Assembly (NCBI RefSeq): GCF_000337375.1
Contig: NZ_AOJG01000018.1
Coordinates: forward strand, 6,278 to 70,277
Direction of reading: 5' to 3'
Origin: Halorubrum lipolyticum DSM 21995
Lineage (GTDB): Archaea > Halobacteriota > Halobacteria > Halobacteriales > Haloferacaceae
Length of the DNA stretch: 64,000 nt
The position numbers were made by a program, and so were the translations under genes. Of this stretch, positions 29,855 to 64,000 are shown piece by piece. Position 1 is the stretch's first letter. Every line of letters starts with the position of its first letter. The notes beneath the pieces were generated by a model, which searched no databases, had not been told where the DNA came from, and worked only from the letters and a program-made list of their open reading frames with translations.

Positions 29855-31831
29855 TCAAACCAGCCCGCCCGCGGTGAACACCGCGTAGCAGATCGCCACT
29901 AACAGTCCGGAGTGGAACAGCGCCGCGTAGCGCCCGCGGGAGGCGGTGCCGGCGAACCACCCCGACGCGAGCATCGTCGCCTGCGTGACGACGTACAGCC
30001 GGAAGCGTTCCAGCTCCGGAAGCACCGTCTCCGGCTCGGTCACGAGGTCGGTGGCGCCGGCGAGGTCGGCGAGCCGGGCGGCGTCGATCACCTGCGTGTT
30101 GACGACGGCGACGACCGCCGCGACCAGCGCGGCCGCCGCCCAGCCGACCGCGACGTACGGGTGCATCGACGAGCGGAGCGCCCGCTGCTCGCTGTAGAGC
30201 CGCCCCACCTCGATCCGGAGCGTCTCGAAGACGGCGTCGGCGTCGCTCCCGGCGTCGAGGGCGTCGGTGACCAGCCCGAGCGTCCCCTCCGCCAGCGGGG
30301 TCCCGACGCGTTCGACGAACCGCTCGATCGCGGCCGCGCGGACGTCGGTCGCGGTCGTCGACTCGCCCGTGGTCCCCGCGCCCTCCGTGCGCCCCGTCGC
30401 GGTCGTCGACCGGAGCGCGAACGCGAGGTCGGCCACGTCGTCGTCGAGGACGCCGAGGTCCGCGTCGCGCGCGACCGCCTCGACCGCCGCGGGGAACGGC
30501 CGCCCCCGCGCGACGTGGCCCGAGACGGCGTGAACGAAGTCCGCCAGCTCGCGGTCCTTCGCGTCGTCGATCCGGGTGCGTCTCCCCGCGGCGACGCCGA
30601 CGGGGACGGCGAACGCCGCGTACGAGAGCAGCCCGACGTTGACGAGGGTGTAGCCGGCGAGGGCGAGGGCGACCGCGAGCAGGGCCGCGGGCGGCGCGCA
30701 GACGACCGCCGCGCTGGCCGGGTTGCGCCCGACCGAGGCGAAGACGCCGCGGGGCGCCGCCGGCAGGTCGTAGCTCGCGCGCTGGTTCGGCGGGCGGAGC
30801 GTGCCGACCGCGACCGCGCCGGCGAGGCCGATGGCGACGAGGAAGGCGACGGCGCCGTAGAGGACGACCGCCCGCGTCGGCACCACCCCGACCGGCGTGT
30901 CGACCGGGGGGAGCAGCTCCGGCACGACGACGGTGAGCGCGGTCGCCGCGATGACGAGCAGCGCCGGCAACACCAACACGAGGACGAACAGCTCCGTGAG
31001 CAGCTCCAGGAACCGGCGGGCGCGCTTCCGGGCCCGGTCCTGCCGGTGCGCGAGCATCCGACGCTCCGTCCGGAGGTACTCCGCGAGCGCCGCGTCGCCG
31101 GTCGCCGCGTGCTTGCGGAACTCGAGGAGGAACGGCGCGAGCAGCTCCCGCGAGGGGGTGTCGCGGGCGACCCGGCGTAACCCCTCGTCGAGGCTCCCGG
31201 CGAGTTGCGCGGCGTTGAGCGCCTTCCGCAGCGAGGTCGCCGTCCCGCCGTAGGCGTCGTTCGCGGCGGCCTTCTCGACCATCTCGCGGGGCCCGTCGCT
31301 CCCGGCCGCGAGCAGTTCGAGGTAGCGGACCGCGGGCGGGAGCGTCCGCTCGATGTCGGTCCGGCGCGTCGCCGTGAGCCACCGGAGGCGGAGCCCGCCG
31401 AGCCGCACCGTCGCGCGCTTCGCGAGGAACCCGGCGAGCCCCGCGACGACGACCGCGACCGAGTCGGCCGACAGCGACGCGATCGGAATCGGGGAGCCCG
31501 CGCCGACTCGGGCGTCGACCGCCGCGAGCAGCCCCGGTGCGGTCGACGCGGCGACGAGCAGCGCCGGGACGATGACCGCGACGCAGGCGACCCACGAGAG
31601 GCCGTACACCCGCGACAGATGCGTCTCGAACCCCGTGTCGAGCGCGGTCCCGCGGTACCGCTTCCGGTCGGCGTCGTGCCGGCGGTCGCTCGCGTGGCGC
31701 GCGAACAGGGCGTACAGCACGCGGTCGATCACCGAGGACCCGCCGGCCCGCGTGAAGCCGTCGGCCTCGGCGGCGTCGAGGGCGCGGCGGCCCCCCGGAG
31801 CGTCGGTTCCCGTCTGTGGCTCCCCGCTCAC
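29855..31831 (-). CDS. Pilus/T2SS-F family membrane platform protein (TadC/PilC-like)
   Basis: A 658-residue membrane protein with two GspF-type four-helix modules separated by hydrophobic helices (for example VLVLPALLVIAATALTVVVP). It would be the inner-membrane platform of an archaeal type IV pilus-like machine. It is partner to the ATPase just upstream, overlapping its stop as GTGA, and starts with GTG. No pilin genes adjoin it, so its pilins are probably encoded elsewhere, as for the PilB3/PilC3 system of Haloferax; that equivalence is inferred. Confidence 0.85.
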   Translation of the reverse strand: MSGEPQTGTDAPGGRRALDAAEADGFTRAGGSSVIDRVLYALFARHASDRRHDADRKRYRGTALDTGFETHLSRVYGLSWVACVAVIVPALLVAASTAPGLLAAVDARVGAGSPIPIASLSADSVAVVVAGLAGFLAKRATVRLGGLRLRWLTATRRTDIERTLPPAVRYLELLAAGSDGPREMVEKAAANDAYGGTATSLRKALNAAQLAGSLDEGLRRVARDTPSRELLAPFLLEFRKHAATGDAALAEYLRTERRMLAHRQDRARKRARRFLELLTELFVLVLVLPALLVIAATALTVVVPELLPPVDTPVGVVPTRAVVLYGAVAFLVAIGLAGAVAVGTLRPPNQRASYDLPAAPRGVFASVGRNPASAAVVCAPPAALLAVALALAGYTLVNVGLLSYAAFAVPVGVAAGRRTRIDDAKDRELADFVHAVSGHVARGRPFPAAVEAVARDADLGVLDDDVADLAFALRSTTATGRTEGAGTTGESTTATDVRAAAIERFVERVGTPLAEGTLGLVTDALDAGSDADAVFETLRIEVGRLYSEQRALRSSMHPYVAVGWAAAALVAAVVAVVNTQVIDAARLADLAGATDLVTEPETVLPELERFRLYVVTQATMLASGWFAGTASRGRYAALFHSGLLVAICYAVFTAGGLV

Positions 31832-34152
31832 GGCCGTCCCTCCCCGTCCGCGGTGCGGGCGGCGCGCTCGACGGTCGCGGCCTCGTCGGTCCGGAGGTCC
31901 GCGAGGAACTCGAACAGCGCGTCGAAGTCGTCGACCCCCTCGCGGACGAGGTACTCGACGTACCGGCGCTTGGACGCGAACTCCGACTCGACGGCGTCGA
32001 CGTCGCGGTCGGTGTGGTCGGCGACGCGACCGAGCGCGTGGAGGCGGCGTTCGTCACCGGGCGCGGTCGGCGCGCCGCGCTCGGGGGCGCCCGGGAACCG
32101 GAACTCGCCGTCGGCGTCTCGCCACGCGACCGTGTTGTAGTACACTTCCTCCGCTCCCTTGTCGATGACGCCGGCACCGCCGTGTTTGGGGTTTCCCGTC
32201 GGGCTTCGCTTCGCCTCGGAGTCGAGGGCCGCGTACTCCGCCTCGGAGAGCAGCTCGACCGCTCGCGAGACGTAGCGCTCGCCGTCGACCTGCCGCGGGA
32301 AGACGACCAGGTCGACCTCGCGGAGGAGGTAAGCGGGGAGCCCGCGCTCGATCACGCGGTTGACGAGCGCCTCCACGTCCTCGGCGTGAGTGGTGCCGAT
32401 CACGCCGTGGCCCGTGTTCAGGGTCTCGGCGAACGTCTCGAAGCTCGCGGGCGTGTTGATCTCGGCGATCACCTCCACGTCCGGGTTCAGGTAGTTCGCT
32501 TCGGCCATCAGCTCCGACATGCTCACGGCCTTGTACGCGTCCTCGTGGTCGCGCGTCGTGAGCGACACCCCGGTCTCGTGCGGGAGCCGGACCTCGCGGG
32601 ACCCCTCGTCGATCGACACCGGCCGGTCGTCGAACGGGATGAAGGGGGTGTGGGCGTTCATGAGCGTCGTCTTCCCCACCCCGGTCGGCCCGGCGAAGAG
32701 GACGGTCCCCCGGTGTTCGTACAGCAGCCACAGCAGGGTGACCAGGTCGGGCGAGAGCGTCCCGTGGTCGACCAGATCGACCGGCGTCAGGGCGTCAGCG
32801 CTCTGCTTGCGGATCGAGACGTGCGGGCCGCCCTCGGAGATGACCGGGAGCGCCACCGCGCACCGAACCGTCTCGTCGACCCCCTCGACGTCGAGGTTCA
32901 CCTTCGCCGACGGCGTCGACGCGTTGAGCTCGGTGCCGTCGCGGGCCGCCAGCCCGGTGACGACGTTGACGAACGCGGTCTCGTCGTCGAACGCGAGGTT
33001 CGTCGGGACGCGTCGCCCGGCCTCTGCGGTGCCGCCGAGGTCGTCGGCGTCGCCGGCGGCACCCGCCTCCGTCCCCTCCAGGATCGAGGTCCGCGGGACC
33101 ACCTTCACGCGCTCGCCGACGCGGTTCGCCTCCACGTCCTCCAGGTTCGGGTCGCGGATCGGTATCGTGAGGATGCCCTCGCCGACGAAGTCGCGCAGCA
33201 CGTAGTACGCCAGGTCGTCGAGCCGGTCGTGGGCGTACCGGGAGTCGACCGGCGGCACCGCGAGCCCGCGGTCGGCCAGCGCGGAGCGGACGCGGTGGGC
33301 CGCCGCGCCGAGCCACGCGCGGGTGTTGCGCGCGGTGAGCCGCCGCGAGAGGAACCGCCGGGCGTGCTCGGCGACGAACGCCTCGCGGTCGTCGACGACG
33401 CCGTTGACGGTCGTCTCCCAGACGCGCTCCTTGCACTCCTCGATCAGCGCCTCGTCGCCCGGGAGGAGGTCGGGCTCGCGGACGGCGTACTTCGTCTCGA
33501 ACGCGTCGGAGCCGAGCAGTCGCTCGCGGGCGACCACCACCTCGACGGAGAGCCCGGCGAAGCCGACCGCGTACCGGGCGAGCCGCTCGGCGGCGACGCG
33601 CTCGACGTACGCCGCGTCGGCGTCGATGCCGGTCTCCAGGGGCGCGAACGTCTCGGTGTGGACGACCAGCTCGCGCTCGTCGCCCACGTCGGCCACCTCG
33701 ATCCGGTCGTCTAAGGCGAGCGGCGTCACGTCGCCGAGGAGCCGGAGGTCGCGCAGCGCGTGGTAGTCGATCCGACGGCGCGCCGCCGCGCTCGCGTCGA
33801 GCAGCCGGTCGAGCGCGCGCTCGTACTTCGGCTCGAACCCCGCCTCGGCCCGCTCGTTCACGCCGACCCGCGTGAGCGGGCGCCGGTGGCGCACCCCGGA
33901 GAAGTGGTCGCGGACGCGGTCGAGCGCGCGCTCGTCGGCCGCCGACAGCGGCGGCTCGCGCACGTCGTAGCCGAACCGGCCGCCGTCGCGCTCGCGGACG
34001 GTCGCGACGACCCCCGGCTCCGGCTCGTACTGCGCCCGCACGTCGGGGGCGTACCACGCCTCGGGATCGTCCGGCGGCACCGGCGCGGGCACCGCGCCGC
34101 CCGGGTCGTCGTCGGCGTCGTCGACGATCCGGAGCGTCGGGCCGTCGCTCAC
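31828..34152 (-). CDS. Type II/IV secretion (pilus assembly) ATPase, VirB11/TadA/PilB-like
   Basis: A 774-residue secretion ATPase powering pilus subunit assembly. A long N-terminal region (about 1-380) precedes the RecA-like core. Walker A GPTGVGKTTL lies near residue 487, the Asp box DDRPVSIDEGSRE follows, and the His box is IGTTHAEDVEALVNRVIERG. Length fits the PilB3 group of haloarchaea. The start is GTG. It is the first gene of a two-gene unit with the platform protein; the TATA-like CTTAAAT lies about 90 nt upstream. Confidence 0.9.
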   Translation of the reverse strand: MSDGPTLRIVDDADDDPGGAVPAPVPPDDPEAWYAPDVRAQYEPEPGVVATVRERDGGRFGYDVREPPLSAADERALDRVRDHFSGVRHRRPLTRVGVNERAEAGFEPKYERALDRLLDASAAARRRIDYHALRDLRLLGDVTPLALDDRIEVADVGDERELVVHTETFAPLETGIDADAAYVERVAAERLARYAVGFAGLSVEVVVARERLLGSDAFETKYAVREPDLLPGDEALIEECKERVWETTVNGVVDDREAFVAEHARRFLSRRLTARNTRAWLGAAAHRVRSALADRGLAVPPVDSRYAHDRLDDLAYYVLRDFVGEGILTIPIRDPNLEDVEANRVGERVKVVPRTSILEGTEAGAAGDADDLGGTAEAGRRVPTNLAFDDETAFVNVVTGLAARDGTELNASTPSAKVNLDVEGVDETVRCAVALPVISEGGPHVSIRKQSADALTPVDLVDHGTLSPDLVTLLWLLYEHRGTVLFAGPTGVGKTTLMNAHTPFIPFDDRPVSIDEGSREVRLPHETGVSLTTRDHEDAYKAVSMSELMAEANYLNPDVEVIAEINTPASFETFAETLNTGHGVIGTTHAEDVEALVNRVIERGLPAYLLREVDLVVFPRQVDGERYVSRAVELLSEAEYAALDSEAKRSPTGNPKHGGAGVIDKGAEEVYYNTVAWRDADGEFRFPGAPERGAPTAPGDERRLHALGRVADHTDRDVDAVESEFASKRRYVEYLVREGVDDFDALFEFLADLRTDEAATVERAARTADGEGRP

Positions 34153-55010: not shown

Positions 55011-56090
55011 CTACAGCAAGTCGTCGAGCTCGTCGTTCCGGAACGCGTCGGCGGGGTCGGGCTGTTCCTCCGGCTCGTCCCGAATTGCCTGTCGCGCGCG
55101 TTCGAGGAACTCCTCGACGCGGCGCGAGCGCTCGACGCCACCGAGGAGGACCAACGCGGCCACCCGGTCGGAGTCCAGCGGGAAGTCGCCGCCGCGCACT
55201 TGCATCGATCCGGTCTCCTCCTGGAGCCACTTGCGCGCCTTCTCCGCGCCCTTCCGAGAGATCCGGTCGGGATCGCCCGCGATGGCGACGAGGGCGGCGT
55301 CCGCGTCGGTCGCGTTCGGGAGCGACATCCCCGTCATCACCGCGCTCCGGACCGCGCTCATCACGGTCGTGATGTTCTCTTCGGCGTCTTCGGCGGCGGG
55401 CGCGGACGCGAACCCGACCGCGGCCATCCCGCCGGCGCGCAGCGTGTTGATCACCTCGCTCGTGTCGACGACCGACTCCGCGACGCCCTCGACCGACTCG
55501 CCGGCCGCGAGCAGGAGCCCGACGCGCTTGGCCATCGAGGCGTTGATCGCGGCGTAGCCTCCCTCGACCGACTCGCCCGAGGAGCGCCACGCGTCGTTGT
55601 CGAGCAGGATCGTCGCGTCCGCCTCGCGGACGAGCGTCTTCAGCGACCGGCCGGCGTTCACCTGATACATCGCCCCCTCGTCGCGGCCGGGGAGGACGCC
55701 GAGCGCGTACACCGGCACGTCATACACGCGGCTCAGCTCGCGGACGAGCACCGGCGCGCCGCCCGATCCGGTGCCGCCGCCGAGCCCCGCGACCACGAAC
55801 AGCGCCTCCGCGTCTGCGGTCACCTTCGGCGCGAGCGCGTCCAGCACCTCGACGGCGTCCTCCTGCATCACCTCGGCGCCGAGCTCGTTGTCGCCGCCGA
55901 CACCGTGTCCGTTCACCCGAGACTGACCGACGAGGACCGTGTCGAGCGGGAGGGGCTCTAGGTCGGCCGACGCGGTGTTCACCGCGAGCGCGTCGAGCAC
56001 CGCGCCGTAGCCGGCGTCGGCGTCGAACTCGGCGAGCGCGGTCGCGAGCTTCCCGCCCGCCTGTCCGACGCCGAGGAGGACCGCTTTCAT
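55011..56090 (-). CDS. CetZ-family tubulin-like GTPase
   Basis: A 359-residue member of the tubulin/FtsZ superfamily closest to archaeal CetZ proteins. The N-terminal GVGQAGGKLA binds guanine nucleotide. The tubulin signature loop is VAGLGGGTGSGGAPVLVREL, and NAGRSLKTLV follows. Haloarchaeal CetZ1 is needed for rod shape and motility; other CetZ paralogues have less clear roles, and I cannot assign the paralogue. The short acidic tail ends in DELDDLL. Its promoter (GGTATTACC, about 56118-56126) is back to back with that of the pilus-type cluster. Confidence 0.88.
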   Translation of the reverse strand: MKAVLLGVGQAGGKLATALAEFDADAGYGAVLDALAVNTASADLEPLPLDTVLVGQSRVNGHGVGGDNELGAEVMQEDAVEVLDALAPKVTADAEALFVVAGLGGGTGSGGAPVLVRELSRVYDVPVYALGVLPGRDEGAMYQVNAGRSLKTLVREADATILLDNDAWRSSGESVEGGYAAINASMAKRVGLLLAAGESVEGVAESVVDTSEVINTLRAGGMAAVGFASAPAAEDAEENITTVMSAVRSAVMTGMSLPNATDADAALVAIAGDPDRISRKGAEKARKWLQEETGSMQVRGGDFPLDSDRVAALVLLGGVERSRRVEEFLERARQAIRDEPEEQPDPADAFRNDELDDLL

Positions 56091-56133: not shown

Positions 56134-56156
56134 ATTTAAATACGGAACCGCGGCCA
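56134..56156 (+). promoter_or_regulatory. Pilus-cluster promoter 1: TATA box plus CGCGGCCA box
   Basis: ATTTAAATA (56134-56142) is followed by CCGCGGCCA (56148-56156) and then the GTG start at 56166. The same box at the same spacing precedes the genes at 57480 and 61340. Leftward CetZ transcription starts just beyond it. Confidence 0.6.
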
Positions 56157-56165
56157 GTCGGCGGC

Positions 56166-56948
56166 GTGACCGACGACACTCACGACCGCGACCGGCCGGT
56201 CGGCGACGGCGGAGAGCCAGCGGAGACCACGGGTGACGGGCGTCCGGGACAGCCTCCCTCGTTCGAGCGAGCCGACCGTACGCCGGCCGGGACGGCCGGG
56301 ACGGCCGGCTCGACGCGATCGAAGGCGGCGCGTTCGACCGCCACCGGCCCGGTCGAATCACCGACCGGAGACCCGAACACCGGTCCGAGCGCCGGACCGA
56401 ACGGTGACCGGGTCGAAGAGCGGCTCCGTGCGGTCGAACGGGCGCTCACCGGGACCGACGATGCCGTCGCCGACATCGGCGACGAGGCGGCCGCCAGCGC
56501 GGAGCGGGAGGAGCTGTCGACGCGGCTCGACGACCTCGAAGCGCGCGTCGAGGAGCTGGAGGCGGCGACGCAGGCGATCAGGGGATACGTCGGATCGATC
56601 CGGTCCGTGAACCAAGCGGTCGAGCGCCGCGCCGACCTCGCGCTCGCCAGGGCGAGCGAAGGCGCTCGGCAGACGGCCAGAGACGGTCGACAGGCTACCG
56701 AAGACGGCCGACAAACGGCCGGAGACGGAGGGGAAATCGCGGACCGCGACGCGGCCGACGACGGTGTGCTCGACGGCGGCGTTCCGAGCGAGGCCGCCCT
56801 CGACGCCGCCGTTCCGGCGGCAGAACGCCGGAAAAACGGAACGGGAGCGGCGACCGAGCCGGCGGGTGGGCGCGCGGAAACGGACGACGAGAAGGCGGAC
56901 GACTCGTGGCGCGCCGGCGCGCTGGATCGGCTCCGTGAGTCCTTGTAA
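56166..56948 (+). CDS. Coiled-coil protein of the pilus-type cluster (DUF7310-like)
   Basis: A 260-residue soluble protein. Residues 1-80 are low complexity. Residues about 82-145 form a predicted coiled coil (VEERLRAVERAL; SAEREELSTRLDDLEARVEELEAAT) followed by a short helix (IRGYVGSIRSVNQAVER). The rest is Asp/Gly/Ala-rich with GRQTA/TEDGRQ repeats. From memory it matches the haloarchaeal family DUF7310, found upstream of TadA-like ATPases. It starts with GTG and heads the cluster. A structural or scaffold role is a guess. Confidence 0.65.
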   Translation: MTDDTHDRDRPVGDGGEPAETTGDGRPGQPPSFERADRTPAGTAGTAGSTRSKAARSTATGPVESPTGDPNTGPSAGPNGDRVEERLRAVERALTGTDDAVADIGDEAAASAEREELSTRLDDLEARVEELEAATQAIRGYVGSIRSVNQAVERRADLALARASEGARQTARDGRQATEDGRQTAGDGGEIADRDAADDGVLDGGVPSEAALDAAVPAAERRKNGTGAATEPAGGRAETDDEKADDSWRAGALDRLRESL

Positions 56949-56975
56949 TCCGCGTCGCGCCGCGGGGACGGGCGG

Positions 56976-57446
56976 GTGATCCGCGTCGTCCTCACGGTCC
57001 TCGTCGCCGTCGCGCTCCTTTCGGTCTCGATGCCGGCGCTGGAGGACGCCCGCGTCGGTACGACCGACGAGCGGCTCGGGACCGAGTCTGACCGGATCGA
57101 GCGGGCGATCGGCGCGCTCTCATCCGGCTCGAGGAGCGTCTCGGACCCGTCGCTCGCCGCCCGGACGACAATAACCGTTCGTTCCCCGAGCGGCCTCACG
57201 GCCGCGCGGATCGACCGGCTCGCGATCGTCGAACCGGAGCGGTCGAGAAACGGGCCTGGCGCCGCGCTCCGGTATCGGATCCGCGGCGGTCGCGACCGGA
57301 CCGTCTCGATCGTCCCGGACGCGGCGACCGCGACCGTCGAGGTCGTCGACGGACCGATCCCGCTCCGAACGCGCGGCGAGAGCCGTCTGGGCCTCCGTCT
57401 CGTCGACGACGCCGGCCCGACCGTCGAGATCGCGCGGGTCGGATGA
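56976..57446 (+). CDS. Membrane-anchored small protein of the pilus-type cluster (DUF7311-like)
   Basis: A 156-residue protein with one N-terminal helix (VVLTVLVAVALLSVSMPALEDA) and a beta-rich extracytoplasmic part (TITVRSPSGLTAARIDRLAIV). The start is GTG, 28 nt after the previous stop. The pattern of one helix followed by a beta domain resembles minor pseudopilins; from memory it corresponds to DUF7311. Specific role unknown. Confidence 0.65.
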   Translation: MIRVVLTVLVAVALLSVSMPALEDARVGTTDERLGTESDRIERAIGALSSGSRSVSDPSLAARTTITVRSPSGLTAARIDRLAIVEPERSRNGPGAALRYRIRGGRDRTVSIVPDAATATVEVVDGPIPLRTRGESRLGLRLVDDAGPTVEIARVG

Positions 57447-57449
57447 AGG

Positions 57450-57471
57450 TTTATAACTGATACCGCGGCCA
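57450..57471 (+). promoter_or_regulatory. Pilus-cluster promoter 2: TATA box plus CGCGGCCA box
   Basis: TTTATAA (57450-57456) and CCGCGGCCA (57463-57471) lie before the ATG at 57480, with the box ending 8 nt before the start codon, as in promoters 1 and 3. Confidence 0.6.
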
Positions 57472-57479
57472 CGCCCGCC

Positions 57480-59456
57480 ATGAGCTTCGATCTCCCCTCG
57501 CTGTCGTCGCTCGGGGGCGACGGCGCGCCGCTGCGATCGCTCCCGTGGCTCGACGGGGACGCGGACGGCTGTCGATGCGACCCGTCGTTCAGAGAGCCGG
57601 TCGGAACCGGCGTCGACGACCGCATGGTCCTCGCGGTGGACGCCGCCGACTGTCCCGGGCGCGGTGACCTCGCCGCGAGCCCCGCCTGTCTCGCGACGGT
57701 TGTCGAGGCGCTGACGGAGCGCGACGCCGACGTGGTCCGGACGCGCCACGCGGGTCGAGAGCGGACCTACGCCGGGCGGGCCGCTGCGTGCCTGATCGCC
57801 GCCGGACGGTTTCGCGAGCGGGTCGAGTTCCACGAGACGCGGCTCGCGGAGCGCGTGACTCGGGAACCGATCACGGCGGCGCGGGAGGCGAGCGGTCGCG
57901 AGGGACCGCCGAAGCGGATCGCCGCGGAGACCGGACTGGCCGAGACCGTCGCGGACGCGGAGGAGACCGGCGACGTGTTGCGAGCGCACGCCGGGCCGAC
58001 GATCGCGGCCACGCGCGTCGCGTCTGCACCGCCGCCGGATGCAGCGCTCGTCGACCAGTGGGAGGTCGACACCGGCGCGACCGTGCGGCTGTACGACGGA
58101 GTGGGGCCGCTGCGGACGTACCACCTCACACCGCCGTCTTCGCGGCTCGACGACGGGGCCGTCGAGCGACTCGCCGCCGCCAAAGACCGGCTGATCGACG
58201 ATCCGACCGGGGGCGACAGGGCGCCGGGGCGGGCGGTCCGAGCGGTCGCGACGACCGACGACCCGGTCTCGACGCTCGTCGACGTGCTTCGACGGCACAC
58301 ACGCGGATACGGCGCGTTCGAACACGTGTTCGCCGACGACCGCGTGAGCGACGCGACGCTGTCGGCGCCCGTCGCAGAGAACCCGCTCCGGGTCGTCGTC
58401 GACGGGGAACGCTGTCGCACGAACGTCAGGCTACCACCCGAGGGCGCGGCGACGCTGGCGTCCCGGCTCCGGCGAACGAGCGGCCGGGGGTTCTCCCGCG
58501 CGAGTCCCACGCTCGACGCGACGATCGAAACCGAAGCCGGTCGGGTTCGGGTCGCGGCGACGACGGACCCCGCCAGTGACGGTCTCTCCTTCACGTTCCG
58601 CCGCGGTGACCCGGAGGCCTGGACCCTCGCGCGGCTCGTGGACGTCAAGACGATCACGCCGGCGGCCGCCGGGCTCCTTTCGGTGGCCGTCGAGCGAGGT
58701 GTGACCGGACTGGTCGCCGGCGGCCGCGGCGCGGGAAAAACGACGGCGCTCGGGTCGCTCCTCTGGGAGCTGCCGGCCGAGACCCGGTCGATCCTGATCG
58801 AGGACACGCCGGAGCTGCCCGTGGACGCGGTGACCGCCGCCGGGCGTGACACCCAGCGGCTCCGGGTCGGCGACGGCGCAGAGCCGTCGCCGAGCGAGGC
58901 GGTGCGGACCGCGCTCCGGCTTGGCGGCGGCGCGATCGTCGTCGGGGAGGTCCGCGGCGAGGAGGCCGCGGCGCTGTACGAGGCGATGCGCGTCGGGGCG
59001 GCCGGCGAGGCGGTCCTCGGGACGATCCACGGCGAAGATCCCGACGCGGTCCGGGAGCGGGTCGTCACCGATCTCGGCGTCTCACCCTCCTCGTTCGCCG
59101 TGACCGACCTGATCGTCGTGCTCGACGACCACCGCGTCGAGACGATCGCCGAGGTCGTCGGCCACGATGACGGATGCGCGTTCGAGCCGCTGTTCGAGCG
59201 AACCGGAGCGGGACTGGTCTCCTCCGGCCGAATCGATCGCGGCGAGAGTCGGATCGTCGAGTCGCTCTCGGAGACCGGCGAATCGTACGCATCCGTGCGA
59301 GATGCCATCGATCGCCGGGGCGAACGGATCGGTGAGGCGGCGAGGACCGGGCGGACCGCGCCGGAACGGTACGTCGACACTTCGGTCGACGTACCGGGGA
59401 GGAACGAGGAGGACCGGCTGGCCACGAGCGAGAGGTTCGGCGGTGGTGAGCGATGA
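57480..59456 (+). CDS. Type II/IV secretion (pilus assembly) ATPase, second copy
   Basis: A 658-residue VirB11/TadA-type ATPase, paralogue of the one at 31828-34152 but shorter and with a different N-terminal half. Several cysteines stand out early (DGCRCDPS at about 30-37 and later ones), possibly a metal site. The core has Walker A GGRGAGKTTALGSLL (about 414-428), the Asp box SILIEDTPELP, Walker B GGGAIVVGEVRGEEA and His box GTIHGEDPDAVRERV. It is predicted to drive assembly of the cluster's pseudopilins, together with the TadC partner whose start it overlaps. Confidence 0.9.
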   Translation: MSFDLPSLSSLGGDGAPLRSLPWLDGDADGCRCDPSFREPVGTGVDDRMVLAVDAADCPGRGDLAASPACLATVVEALTERDADVVRTRHAGRERTYAGRAAACLIAAGRFRERVEFHETRLAERVTREPITAAREASGREGPPKRIAAETGLAETVADAEETGDVLRAHAGPTIAATRVASAPPPDAALVDQWEVDTGATVRLYDGVGPLRTYHLTPPSSRLDDGAVERLAAAKDRLIDDPTGGDRAPGRAVRAVATTDDPVSTLVDVLRRHTRGYGAFEHVFADDRVSDATLSAPVAENPLRVVVDGERCRTNVRLPPEGAATLASRLRRTSGRGFSRASPTLDATIETEAGRVRVAATTDPASDGLSFTFRRGDPEAWTLARLVDVKTITPAAAGLLSVAVERGVTGLVAGGRGAGKTTALGSLLWELPAETRSILIEDTPELPVDAVTAAGRDTQRLRVGDGAEPSPSEAVRTALRLGGGAIVVGEVRGEEAAALYEAMRVGAAGEAVLGTIHGEDPDAVRERVVTDLGVSPSSFAVTDLIVVLDDHRVETIAEVVGHDDGCAFEPLFERTGAGLVSSGRIDRGESRIVESLSETGESYASVRDAIDRRGERIGEAARTGRTAPERYVDTSVDVPGRNEEDRLATSERFGGGER

Positions 59457-61270
59457 CCGGTCCGGACGGCGCTCTGACTGAGCGCCCACGACGCGGTGCA
59501 GTAGGTGACGACGAGGGATCGGCGGAGCTCCGTCGAGCTATCGCGTTCCTCGGATGGGACGCGACGAGCGCGGAGGTGATCGAAACGGGGTATCGAGCCG
59601 GGGTGGGTGTCGGACTGGTCTGCGCCGTCGTCGTCGCGTTCGTCTCCGGACCGGTTCCGGGGCTGCTGTTCGGACTGACCGGCGGTCTGGGCGCCACGCA
59701 CGCCGTCCATCGGGGACCCGTGTGGCTCGCGTCGCTCCGGCGGACGAGGGCCCTCGGAGCCGCGCCCGGACTCGTCGGACGGCTCGTGTTGCGGATGCGG
59801 TTGGACCCGTCGACGGAACGCGCCGTGCGGTTCGCCGCGCGGACCGGCGACGGACCGCTCGCCGACGACCTCGCGCGCCGCGAGCGAGCGAACGCCGACG
59901 GGCCGACCAGCGGACTCAGAGCGTTCGCCCGCGAGTGGCAGCCGTGGTTCCCGGCGATCGACCGGGCGGCGGCGCTCGTTCGCACGGCCGCGTCGGCGCC
60001 TCCCGAACGGCGGGGGCGGTGCCTGGACCGCGCGCTCGACGCGACGATCGCCGGAACGACCGACCGGCTCGCCGCCTTCGTCGGCGAGGTCCGCGGCCCC
60101 GTCTCGGCGCTGTACGCGTTCGGGGTGTTGCTCCCGCTCGCGCTCATTGCCCTCCTTCCGGCGGCTGCCGCGGCCGGCGTTCCGATCGGCCCGGGCCTCG
60201 TCGCGGCGCTGTACCTCGGCGTGCTACCGGCGGGACTGCTCGCGGCGTCGGCGTGGCTGCTCTCCCGTCGCCCGGTCGCGTTCGCGCCGCCGAGCATCGA
60301 CGGAGATCATCCGGACGTTCCGGAAAGAGGAGCCCACGCCGCGGTCGCTGGGGTGGGAACCGGAGCCGTCGCCGCCGTCGTCGCGGCGCGGTTCGTCGCC
60401 GGATGGGCCGCGCCAGTCGCCGGGATCGGAGTCGGAGCCGGCGTCGCGCTATTCGTCGCCGTCCGCCGTCGCAGGGCGGTACTGTCGAACGTCCGCGCCG
60501 TCGAGCGCACCCTTCCGGACGCGATGACGGTGATCGGCGGCGACGTGGCCGAAGGGGTCGCCGTCGAGACCGCGATCGCGAACGCCGGCGAGCGGCTCGA
60601 CGGCGCCACCGGTGATCTGTTCGAACTCGCCGGACGGCGGAGCGATACGCTTCGAGTCGGCGTCCGGGAGGCGTTCCTCGGCCGCGGCGGTCCGGCGGTT
60701 CCGGTTCCGTCACCGCGGGTACGAGGCGCGGTCGCACTGCTCTCCGTCGCCGCGCGGGAGGGTCGACCGGCGGGCGACGTGCTGCTCGAACTCGCCGACC
60801 AGCTGGAGGACCTCCGCGAGCTCGAGAGCGACGCGCGGCGACAGCTCGCGACCGTGACGGGGACCCTAACGAACACCGCGGCGGTGTTCGCGCCGCTCGT
60901 GGGCGGGGCGACCGTCGCGCTCGCGACCGGTATCGACGCGGTCGACGCCGGGGGAATCGGCGCGGGAGCGACGGCCGGAGCGGACGTGCTCGGCGGCGGT
61001 GCGGGCGGTGCAGGCGGTGTGAGTGGCGATCCGGTCGGAGCGAGCGGCGAATCGTCGCCGGGAGCGAAGGGCGGAGCGCTTTCGGTTCCGGTGCTCGGCC
61101 GGATCGTCGGCGCGTACGTGTTGGTCCTCGCGGCGCTGCTCACAGCGTTGGCGACCGGGCTCGAACGCGGGTTCGATCGGACGCTCGTCGCCTATCGGGT
61201 CGGGATCGCGTTGCCGACTGCGACCGCGACGTACCTCGTCGCTTTCCTCGGCGCCGGACTGCTGCTGTAG
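59453..61270 (+). CDS. Pilus/T2SS-F family membrane platform protein, second copy
   Basis: A 605-residue TadC-like platform with two GspF modules. The strongest membrane segments are near 55-75, 215-285, 300-330, 480-510 and the C-terminal 545-605. The Gly/Ala-rich loop near 510-545 is low complexity. Its ATG overlaps the ATPase stop by 4 nt. It differs from the platform at 29855 in length and sequence, so the genome carries two such machines in 35 kb. Confidence 0.85.
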   Translation: MTGPDGALTERPRRGAVGDDEGSAELRRAIAFLGWDATSAEVIETGYRAGVGVGLVCAVVVAFVSGPVPGLLFGLTGGLGATHAVHRGPVWLASLRRTRALGAAPGLVGRLVLRMRLDPSTERAVRFAARTGDGPLADDLARRERANADGPTSGLRAFAREWQPWFPAIDRAAALVRTAASAPPERRGRCLDRALDATIAGTTDRLAAFVGEVRGPVSALYAFGVLLPLALIALLPAAAAAGVPIGPGLVAALYLGVLPAGLLAASAWLLSRRPVAFAPPSIDGDHPDVPERGAHAAVAGVGTGAVAAVVAARFVAGWAAPVAGIGVGAGVALFVAVRRRRAVLSNVRAVERTLPDAMTVIGGDVAEGVAVETAIANAGERLDGATGDLFELAGRRSDTLRVGVREAFLGRGGPAVPVPSPRVRGAVALLSVAAREGRPAGDVLLELADQLEDLRELESDARRQLATVTGTLTNTAAVFAPLVGGATVALATGIDAVDAGGIGAGATAGADVLGGGAGGAGGVSGDPVGASGESSPGAKGGALSVPVLGRIVGAYVLVLAALLTALATGLERGFDRTLVAYRVGIALPTATATYLVAFLGAGLLL

Positions 61271-61308
61271 CGGGGCGAAGGAACTTTCGAGAGCGCATCG
61301 GAGCGACC

Positions 61309-61331
61309 ATTTAAATACGAAAACGCGGCCA
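61309..61331 (+). promoter_or_regulatory. Pilus-cluster promoter 3: TATA box plus CGCGGCCA box
   Basis: ATTTAAATA (61309-61317) and CGCGGCCA (61324-61331) precede the GTG start at 61340; the box again ends 8 nt before the start codon. Confidence 0.6.
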
Positions 61332-61339
61332 GTCGCCTC

Positions 61340-61828
61340 GTGTTCGAGACCCACCTCGACGCCACGTACGCGTGGCTCGGTCTAGCGCTGGTAAGCGTCG
61401 CGACCGCCGGCGTCGCCGCCGCGCTCCCGGCCTCTCCGCCGCCGGACGCGAGCGGCGTCGCGCACACGATTGACTCGGTCGGCGACAGCGAGTACCCGAC
61501 GACGGCGGAGCACGGGCTCGCCGCGGACCGCGTCCGTCTCACGGACCGCTCGATCGCACTCGACGGGGGAGGCGGGACCGCGCGGGCGACACTGCATGGA
61601 CCGCGGATTACCCCCGTCCCGACGGGCCGAGAGGGAACGACCGACGACGATCGCCTTCGTCGGGTTCTGAGCGGCGTTCCGCCAGGCGCGGCGTTCGACG
61701 ATTCCGACGCGTTCGCGGCCGCCGCCGAGCGCGCCCAGACGAGCGACCACGAGTGGCGTCCGGCGCCGGATCGACTAACGGTGAGGCGAGTTCACTACGG
61801 AGGAGAACATGTCACGCTGGTCGGCTGA
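61340..61828 (+). CDS. Pseudopilin-like anchored protein (DUF7283-like)
   Basis: A 162-residue protein with one N-terminal hydrophobic helix (AWLGLALVSVATAGVAAALP) and a polar extracytoplasmic domain. It is exported and anchored in the pattern of archaeal pilin-like proteins, though no clear class III signal cleavage site is visible. The start is GTG under promoter 3, and the gene overlaps the next by 20 nt. From memory it fits DUF7283. Confidence 0.65.
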   Translation: MFETHLDATYAWLGLALVSVATAGVAAALPASPPPDASGVAHTIDSVGDSEYPTTAEHGLAADRVRLTDRSIALDGGGGTARATLHGPRITPVPTGREGTTDDDRLRRVLSGVPPGAAFDDSDAFAAAAERAQTSDHEWRPAPDRLTVRRVHYGGEHVTLVG

Positions 61829-62249
61829 ACGGTCCCTCCGCGGAGAGGGATCCGAAGGCCGCGCCGCGGTCGAACCGATCGCCGCCCTGATCGCCGTGCT
61901 TGCCGTCGGCGCGGCCCTGGGCTTGTACGTCGTCGCGCTCGACGACGCGGCGCCGGATCGGGAGCGTCCGACCGCCGAAGCGACGCTCGATCGGGTCGAA
62001 CCAGCCGTGACGACGGGCGGCGTCGTCGAGCCGGAACGGCTGCGCGGCATCGGTGAGTTCCGATACGCCGCGACCGTCGCGATCGAGGCTAACGGAGAGA
62101 CGTGGACGGTCCGGTCCGGCGACGAGGCACCGGTAGCGGAGGACGGGCGACACACAGACGCGGTCGCGGTCGCCGAGCGGAAAGTAACCGTCAGAGTCGG
62201 AGTGGGGCGGAACGTCCGCGGAACGCTTCGAGCGGTGGTGTATCGATGA
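61809..62249 (+). CDS. Pseudopilin-like anchored protein (DUF7285-like)
   Basis: A 146-residue protein with SEGRAAVEPIAALIAVLAVGAALGL-type organisation: a short charged leader, an Ala/Val helix at about 20-44 and a beta-rich domain. The EGRA-AVEP stretch just before the helix resembles a prepilin or TadE-like N-terminus. It overlaps both neighbours, the next one as ATGA. Likely a minor subunit of the assembled structure. Confidence 0.65.
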   Translation: MSRWSAERSLRGEGSEGRAAVEPIAALIAVLAVGAALGLYVVALDDAAPDRERPTAEATLDRVEPAVTTGGVVEPERLRGIGEFRYAATVAIEANGETWTVRSGDEAPVAEDGRHTDAVAVAERKVTVRVGVGRNVRGTLRAVVYR

Positions 62250-62980
62250 CGAGCACCGTGCTCGACGTGACGGTACTGCTCCTCTGCGTCTCCGCGAGCG
62301 TCGTCGCGCTCGGTGCTGTCGACGGCGACCGGGGAGCGGCGGAGGCCGAAGCCGGCGAAGCCGCCGATCTGATCGCGACGGAGACGGTGACCGTGACGTA
62401 CGCGTCGGACGAGGCGCCGAACGGGACCCGGACGGTCCACGCGACACGCGCCGAGCTGGTGGCGCTGGTGGCGGCCGAAGGCGGAGGAGACGGTGAGGAA
62501 CACGCACGGAGAGAGGCGTTCGAGTCCGAGGCACTGTCCGCCGTCGAGCGGGGCATCGGACCGCGGACGCGGATCGACGCGGAGGTGGAGATGTCGCAGC
62601 CGAAGCGGGCCGCGAACGAAAGCGGCGGCGGAGCGGAGGGACCTTCGTCGGACGCCGCGGCCGGAGCGTCGCGTCGGAGCCCGAACGAGTCCGCGCTGCT
62701 GAGCGGGCCCGGGAGGTGGAACTTCGGTTCGGACGGAGTCGGTCAAAATCCGACCGGAGCGACCGGGACAGGCGTTCCGTGGCGTATCGATCGGGAGGAA
62801 GGCGGCGGCGGGAGATCCGAAACGGAGCGGCGTGAGATCGGGGCCGAACCTCCGGGTCCGATCGCCGTCGGGAGTGAGCCGCCGCGGGGCGCCGAGGTCA
62901 CGGCCGCCGTGATCACGCACCCGATCCCGAACGACTCGGGTTCGATCGAGAGGGTCAGGATCGTGATCAGGAGGTGGTGA
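62246..62980 (+). CDS. Anchored protein of the pilus-type cluster (DUF7284-like)
   Basis: A 244-residue protein with an N-terminal helix (VLDVTVLLLCVSASVVALGA, cysteine inside) and a long low-complexity extracytoplasmic middle rich in Gly, Ser, Glu and Arg (about 125-200), then a short beta end. Function unknown. Both ends overlap neighbouring genes (ATGA and GTGA), so it is co-translated with them. Confidence 0.6.
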   Translation: MTSTVLDVTVLLLCVSASVVALGAVDGDRGAAEAEAGEAADLIATETVTVTYASDEAPNGTRTVHATRAELVALVAAEGGGDGEEHARREAFESEALSAVERGIGPRTRIDAEVEMSQPKRAANESGGGAEGPSSDAAAGASRRSPNESALLSGPGRWNFGSDGVGQNPTGATGTGVPWRIDREEGGGGRSETERREIGAEPPGPIAVGSEPPRGAEVTAAVITHPIPNDSGSIERVRIVIRRW

Positions 62981-64000
62981 GCGTGCGAAATCGGTCGACA
63001 GACGAACGCGCGTCCGACACCGTATCGCGGTGCCGATCCTTCACCGTCGACGAGCGCGCGCGGGTCCCGTTCGCGCTGATCGGCGTGCTCCTCTTGGTGA
63101 CGAGCTCGACGTACGCCGCGGGGATTGCGGACCAGGGGCTCGTCGGTGAGGACCGGAGCGTGGAACGCGCCGTCGAGCGCGTCGACGCCGATTCGACCGC
63201 CGCGCTCAGGGCCGCGGCGCGTCGGGCCGCGCACGATGCGGCCGCGGAGCCGGTGACGCGAGCGCCGGACGAGACGGCCGCCGGTTCGGAGGGTAGACGC
63301 GGAGCGACCGCGGTCCGAAACGGGTCCGCCTTCGAAGACGCGTTCCGGATCCGGCTCGCACTCGCCGGCGCCGAGGCGCTGTCGGCCGTCGACGCCGAAG
63401 TCGGTGACGTGACGGCGACGGCGTCGCTACCGACGGTGGACGACCCGAGCGGGCTGGCGACGGCGCGCGACCGGGTTCACGTCGAGTCCGCCGCGAACGG
63501 GACGGCGACGCGCGTGACGTTCGAAGGGATGGAAACGACCGCGACGCGGAACGGGCGCACGGTCGTCGACCGGACGGAGGACAGAACCGTCGTGGTGGCT
63601 GTGCCGACGCTTGCGGCGCACGAGCGGACGGAGCGGCTCGAGGAACGACTCGATCGAGGGCCGACCGAGGGACCGGGACTGGGCCGTCAGCTCACCGCGA
63701 GCCTCTACCCGATGACGTGGGCGCGCGGGTACGCGCAGTACGCGGGCGCACCGGTCGAGAACGTGCTCGCGAACCGGCACGTGGAGCTGTCGACGAACGC
63801 GGGGATCGTCCGGACGCAACGCGACGTGTTCGGCACGAGCGACCCGAACGCACGCGGGGGAGTGGCGCGTGCGACGGCGCGGACCGGCGTCACCGACCTG
63901 CTCAAACCGACCGGCGTCGACGAGGGGTCGTGGACCGAGGCCGTGCTCGACGCACCCACGCCGGGGGGAGGCGACGGCTCGAAAGCCGAGAGCACCCCGG
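62977..64000 (+). CDS. Anchored pilus-cluster protein, cut by window end (DUF7286-like)
   Basis: An open frame of at least 341 codons from a GTG that overlaps the previous stop as GTGA. It has an N-terminal helix (VPFALIGVLLLVTSSTYAAG, about 31-50) and a large extracytoplasmic part with EDRSVERAVERVDADSTAALRAAARRAAHDA, likely helical, and later TASLYPMTWARGYAQYAGAP. This is the largest of the cluster's anchored proteins and continues past the window. From memory it matches DUF7286. The frame has no stop codon to position 64000. Confidence 0.65.
   Translation, partial: MSVRNRSTDERASDTVSRCRSFTVDERARVPFALIGVLLLVTSSTYAAGIADQGLVGEDRSVERAVERVDADSTAALRAAARRAAHDAAAEPVTRAPDETAAGSEGRRGATAVRNGSAFEDAFRIRLALAGAEALSAVDAEVGDVTATASLPTVDDPSGLATARDRVHVESAANGTATRVTFEGMETTATRNGRTVVDRTEDRTVVVAVPTLAAHERTERLEERLDRGPTEGPGLGRQLTASLYPMTWARGYAQYAGAPVENVLANRHVELSTNAGIVRTQRDVFGTSDPNARGGVARATARTGVTDLLKPTGVDEGSWTEAVLDAPTPGGGDGSKAESTP

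Follow-up and report, generated by a model that had tools for sequence, protein, structure and literature searches.

At the right-hand end of a 64,000-nucleotide stretch of the Halorubrum lipolyticum DSM 21995 genome (contig NZ_AOJG01000018.1, positions 6,278 to 70,277; hereafter the window) lies an eight-gene locus that almost certainly encodes a type IV pilus-like machine. The locus is a member of the predicted pilB2/pilC2 (pil-2) system beside cetZ2 (arCOG01818), which is already in print. What is new is that all three promoters of the locus combine a TATA box with the element CGNGRCCA, 16–18 bases ahead of the start codon. The locus, this shared element and the co-distribution of a HerA-like gene with pil-2 are direct observations. 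We propose, with a probability of roughly 0.55, that pil-2 supplies the pilus of an apparatus by which haloarchaea take up DNA. We infer DNA uptake because one of the families sharing the element, TctA, is essential for transformation in methanogens, and because the HerA-like gene tracks pil-2. The analysis names the genes, the promoter element and the first partners (HerA-like and DUF7382 proteins) of this machine, and bears on how DNA enters archaea across the membrane; it also joins two results that stand apart in the papers cited below, the TctA genetics of methanogens and the haloarchaeal pilB2 locus. The features of the locus are as follows.

56135..56160, + strand: promoter 1, TATA box and element, TTTAAATACGGAACCGCGGCCAGTCG; exact copy, ending 5 bases before the DUF7310 GTG start
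56166..56948, + strand: DUF7310 coiled-coil protein, probably cytoplasmic; Pfam 97.8 bits; GTG start
56976..57446, + strand: DUF7311; Pfam 129 bits; N-terminal helix with pilin-like Pro kink, from ortholog N-termini
57450..57471, + strand: promoter 2, looser copy of the same element, TTTATAACTGATACCGCGGCCA; before the ATPase
57480..59456, + strand: PilB2-type assembly ATPase; T2SSE 62.1 bits, cut-off 24.9
59453..61270, + strand: PilC2/TadC-like platform protein; 8 hydrophobic segments
61310..61335, + strand: promoter 3, exact copy, TTTAAATACGAAAACGCGGCCAGTCG; before DUF7283
61340..61828, + strand: DUF7283 anchored subunit; Pfam 184 bits
61809..62249, + strand: DUF7285, the clearest prepilin of the locus; Pfam 89.7 bits
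62246..62980, + strand: DUF7284, pilin-like; Pfam 45 bits
62974..64000, + strand, continuing to about 66255 beyond the window: DUF7286 large subunit; Pfam 1100 bits at full length
55011..56090, - strand: CetZ tubulin-like gene in the CetZ2 position, divergent from the locus; Pfam CetZ_C 213 bits

A promoter element shared by pil-2 and distant genes

Directly ahead of the DUF7310 and DUF7283 start codons lies a two-part site, TTTAAATACG-N4-CGCGGCCAGTCG, and a search of the host genome (3.43 Mb) at up to 3 mismatches returned only two copies, promoters 1 and 3. For comparison across haloarchaea we used 40 loci from 33 genera, picked from genomes with a DUF7286 match, so that all of them hold DUF7286 by choice. 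Strict CGNGRCCA starting at -18 to -16 was present in 14/35 DUF7310, 12/40 ATPase and 19/40 DUF7283 promoters. Overall, 45 of 115 pil-2 promoters carried CGNGRCCA at this position; among the remaining genes of these loci 3 of 325 did so, and random 25-mers matched at a rate of 0.6%. The TATA box sits 30 bases ahead of the start codon, suggesting leaderless transcripts, in which case the element would fall between the TATA box and the transcription start.

The possibility that the element is private to the pil-2 locus was rejected, since a class-wide search revealed a wider promoter class: 260 of the 292 haloarchaeal genomes contained TTYAWRT-N7-CGSGRCCA, and a reversed control was near zero. 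Among 40 non-pil-2 sites selected from the listed sites of this search, 3 had a TctA-like gene downstream, 4 DUF7382, 2 a HerA-like gene, 2 a Cas4-like gene, 2 a NucS-N/zinc-ribbon gene and 1 a PLD gene; a further 7 and 10 preceded structured-RNA-like sequences of two kinds, and 9 were ambiguous. We chose the partner families from the genes found after sites in a few genomes, and their promoters were then counted over the best-scoring loci, which biases the counts to relatives of the query. With that bias, the strict element occurred at -20 to -14 ahead of 25/30 TctA, 15/30 PLD, 11/30 Cas4-like and 9/30 HerA genes, against a background of 14/1616 open reading frames. A weight matrix was also trained on the promoters of pil-2 and no others, and starts were selected purely by TATA score; with the same bias and against 51 TATA-bearing controls, 22/22 TctA, 22/26 PLD, 19/22 Cas4-like, 20/25 DUF7382 and 6/18 HerA promoters scored above 95% of the controls; none of the cetZ (0/7 TATA-bearing starts) or DHH (0/6) promoters exceeded that threshold. 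In the host genome the strict element precedes the TctA (C33) and Cas4-like (C13) genes, with at least one change at PLD (C40) and at HerA and DUF7382 (C17). Taken together, these results make it very probable that one promoter element is common to pil-2 and the TctA, PLD, Cas4-like and DUF7382 genes, suggesting that pil-2 and its partners are co-regulated in the cell. CetZ2, DUF5791 and the epimerase were rejected as members of this regulon, as their genes lack the element (for cetZ, 1 of 31 genes carries it).

The sampled sites also brought to light two RNA-like families. The first, at ten sites (L168, L179, L182, L183, L185, L186, L187, L190, L191, L199), lies about 30 nt past the TATA box and is short, with a hairpin and a possible pseudoknot whose matching changes were judged by eye, and with several copies per genome. 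The second, at seven sites (L171, L172, L173, L174, L175, L181, L193), likewise follows this promoter and carries a conserved tail, CCAGTCCGACTANCCCGARAGGGCTGAG. When 20 of the 40 site loci were compared with Rfam, the 2 matches obtained were weak, and neither family reached the gathering score. In the host genome the strict element is also found at a Tat-type (twin-arginine translocation) exported protein of a family without a name (L327, G000:C38:45000-46600, near 653).

Partner proteins and a possible route for DNA

The HerA-like protein matches DUF87 above the cut-off, and its gene is divergent from the DUF7382 gene. Defining its presence as at least 48% identity, a threshold that we set from the identity table, we found among 79 genomes 53 with both the HerA-like gene and pil-2 (scored by DUF7286), 5 with pil-2 only, none with HerA only and 21 with neither; the statistic for this co-distribution (Fisher) ignores the kinship of the genomes and has no patchy family as a control. 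Because presence is mixed within genus g25 (two genomes with both, three with neither) and genus g28 (one of each), the two come and go jointly on more than one occasion. In Sulfolobales, DNA import involves CedB and CedD, two ATPases of the HerA clade (PMC11868833). Haloarchaea carry about one TctA-like protein each (116/116 genomes). The PLD protein contains two PLD domains, along with N-terminal signal-like and C-terminal membrane-like stretches recognized by eye, and is presumed to be a secreted nuclease. DUF7382 is a protein of about 150 residues that combines a highly conserved helix, RAIEGLP[IV]RLV, with a domain matching immunoglobulin-like models; by this architecture we propose it as a candidate for the missing pilin of pil-2. 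The residue following its supposed cleavage site breaks the class III rule. The earlier note had found no major pilin; this is true of the locus, but a pilin-like protein that shares the promoter element, DUF7382, is encoded elsewhere in the genome.

We can postulate a route for DNA, in which the step given to each protein is conditional. The three promoters, through their dedicated element, would transcribe the locus together with the TctA-like, PLD, Cas4-like and HerA-like/DUF7382 genes. The machine would consist of the PilB2 ATPase, the PilC2 platform, the coiled-coil accessory protein and four to five proteins anchored by a helix, either minor pilins or envelope subunits. PibD would process the prepilins, and PilB2/PilC2 would build a pilus or pseudopilus in which the missing filament subunit may be DUF7382. 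The PLD protein may capture and cut DNA at the cell surface; the DNA would then pass the membrane via the TctA-like protein, and be handled inside the cell by the HerA-like ATPase and the Cas4-like protein. More tentative is the proposal of a full co-regulated competence apparatus, in which DUF7382 forms the filament of pil-2, TctA is the translocase, PLD the nuclease at the surface and the HerA-like protein the DNA pump, all under an element that drives two unrecorded families of small RNA as well; we would not favor this over its failing in one part or another.

One close precedent comes from methanogens. Natural transformation of Methanococcus maripaludis cannot do without the TctA-like protein MMJJ_13030, nor that of Methanoculleus thermophilus without its homolog, and pili are also needed; the authors suggest that the TctA-like protein is the DNA transporter. 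Archaea are said to be without ComEC (PMC10133366). As described there, the methanogen apparatus resembles ours in having a type IV-like pilus, a TctA-like protein and a nuclease, but its pilin sets are different, and here a PLD-type protein takes the place of the thermonuclease, and HerA and Cas4-like proteins are added. The Ups/Ced system of Sulfolobales (PMC11868833) is also alike, in that a pilus, a HerA-clade ATPase and DNA genes are switched on together, whereas the channel here would be TctA-like instead of CedA.

Alternative roles of the locus

Several observations weigh against a role in DNA uptake. The haloarchaeal TctA-like proteins belong to the family of the methanogen ones and are at most their putative orthologs. 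The TctA (116/116), PLD (79/79) and Cas4-like (78/79) genes are near-universal, even in genomes without pil-2, and the HerA promoters are the weakest among the partner families. The element precedes structured-RNA-like sequences at 17 of the 40 sampled sites, with a further 9 ambiguous, and is thus no signature of DNA uptake alone. The pil-2 locus is damaged in Halobacterium (Hbt.) salinarum (PMC4292770), and the papers cited here describe no effect of pilB2 on DNA uptake. In print pilB2 is linked to adhesion, its transcript being 8.5-fold higher in adherent Hbt. salinarum (PMC4292770).

This last result favors an adhesion or biofilm pilus like PilB3/PilA of Haloferax (Hfx.), in which the element would be a general switch responding to growth phase or surface, with the DNA genes as unrelated members of its regulon. 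The presence of the element ahead of structured RNAs and a Tat-exported protein is consistent with such a switch. However, the strict two-part site marks only pil-2 promoters in the host genome, the targets of the element are unusually DNA-related and include the family essential for transformation, and the HerA-like gene follows pil-2 in its distribution, so that we regard this explanation as rather unlikely. We attach a similarly low probability to a DNA-damage response in which pili aggregate cells for the exchange of DNA in repair, as in Ups/Ced. That one element is shared by a pilus, an ATPase of the HerA clade and nuclease-like genes parallels the co-induced Ups/Ced genes (PMC11868833), and a crenarchaeal origin has been suggested for the ATPases of halobacterial subclade 4F (PMC4858521), but pibD had no effect on mating in Hfx. 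volcanii, according to earlier work cited in PMC7749143. Both adhesion and damage-induced exchange are compatible with DNA uptake, and neither is exclusive of it. According to a proposal in PMC9856176, CetZ2 scaffolds the pilus or uses it in cell shape or motility, which would agree with the divergent position of cetZ in 31 of the 40 loci; the want of the element at cetZ, and the 9 of 40 loci with no cetZ nearby, make this improbable.

Architecture and conservation of the locus

The earlier note described a pilus-like machine with a TadA-like ATPase, a TadC-like platform and stop/start overlaps, and the eight open reading frames were indeed found as placed, all on the + strand, with overlaps of 4 nt (ATPase/platform), 20 nt (DUF7283/DUF7285), 4 nt (DUF7285/DUF7284) and 7 nt (DUF7284/DUF7286). 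Its suggestion to read past 64000 was borne out by DUF7286, a protein of 1093 residues that extends to about 66255 and so ends about 2.3 kb outside the window. The right flank then holds DUF5791, an NAD-dependent epimerase, a DHH protein and a PAN-like AAA protein, the last named by eye. Gene order and strand (pilB-pilC-7283-7285-7284-7286) were kept in 40/40 loci, and therefore the arrangement is not due to chance; DUF7310-DUF7311 (38/40), cetZ (31/40), DUF5791 (38/40) and the epimerase (34/40) lay alongside. DUF7286 was present in 224 of 292 haloarchaeal genomes and 58 of 77 genera. It was also present in the control genome of Methanosarcina acetivorans, indicating that the family reaches beyond haloarchaea. 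Like bacterial Tad pili, the locus has a TadA/TadC-like motor and three consecutive pilin-like genes, the last of them very large, but it has no Flp pilin and no outer-membrane parts.

A literature search on DUF7286, DUF7382, DUF7283 and arCOG01818 led, via the arCOG alone, to three papers only: PMC4292770, which named the pilB2/pilC2 locus in Halobacterium; PMC4858521, whose clade 4F has a cysteine-rich ATPase N-terminus, a coiled coil and an S-layer-like protein; and PMC9856176, which placed the pil-2 locus beside cetZ2. The published pil-2 (Hbt. salinarum OE1347R/OE1344R; arCOG01818/arCOG01810; clade 4F) agrees with ours in its ATPase family, platform, coiled coil, large envelope protein and cetZ2 neighbor; we take the clade 4F assignment of the ATPase from gene content and arCOG and not from a tree. 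DUF7310 is likely the arCOG07564 type of PMC4858521. The machine, which the note had called uncharacterised and made only of domains of unknown function, thus already has a name in print, while the printed passages on it show no function; nor do these passages contain the promoter element, regulon, HerA/DUF7382 partners or DNA-uptake role proposed here.

The ATPase N-terminus (window 57480-57900) contains a four-cysteine motif, CxC...DCPG.GDL...C, in 18 of the 18 orthologs displayed, which may form a metal site; a cysteine-rich domain at this position was noted in PMC4858521. The platform protein itself scores 16 bits against T2SSF, below the cut-off of 25.2, and 8 of 13 family members match that model (best E 5e-7). 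The note had counted at least six small or medium proteins, most with one N-terminal helix. Five, and not six, have an N-terminal membrane helix, whereas DUF7310 looks cytoplasmic. Judged by eye, leader-like N-termini are present in DUF7285 and partly in DUF7284 and DUF7286, while the ortholog N-termini of DUF7283 and DUF7311 show no leader peptide. DUF7285 has a clear prepilin-type start (ortholog N-terminus RGQ[VT]EPLAALVA), with a putative cleavage site. DUF7284 has a leader R[AG][IV]ST in many genera, and in Halorubrum starts directly at the helix (MTSTVLDV, window 62246); beginning at a mature-like residue, it may need no peptidase. In DUF7286 the N-terminal helix, [RA]RVPFALVGVLLLV, follows R-x-R or R-G-R and precedes about 1000 residues.

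Helix-plus-beta subunits, as the note had envisaged, are supported by the structure model of DUF7283, a mixed alpha/beta globular domain at residues 37-162 (predicted local distance difference test, pLDDT, 82) behind a low-confidence stretch in the first 30 residues, but not by that of DUF7286, which is poor (pLDDT 53). The DUF7283 model had no confident fold match (Foldseek best E 0.26, VIA-align best Z 2.6), which is no proof of a new fold, and searching with the poor DUF7286 model returned no significant fold match (best E 0.095). None of the subunits matched the fold of an enzyme. Consistent with the absence of a prepilin peptidase from the window, the sole match in the genome lies on another contig, with none on the window's contig; Pilin_N had six genome matches, four of them above the cut-off and all away from the window's contig. 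T2SSE also had six matches, the other five lying away from the locus. A second ATPase/platform pair is located on the - strand at window positions 29855-31831 (T2SSE 72.8 bits) and 31828-34152 (T2SSF 34.1 bits), adjoining cobyrinate-type genes, and is possibly PilB4-like.

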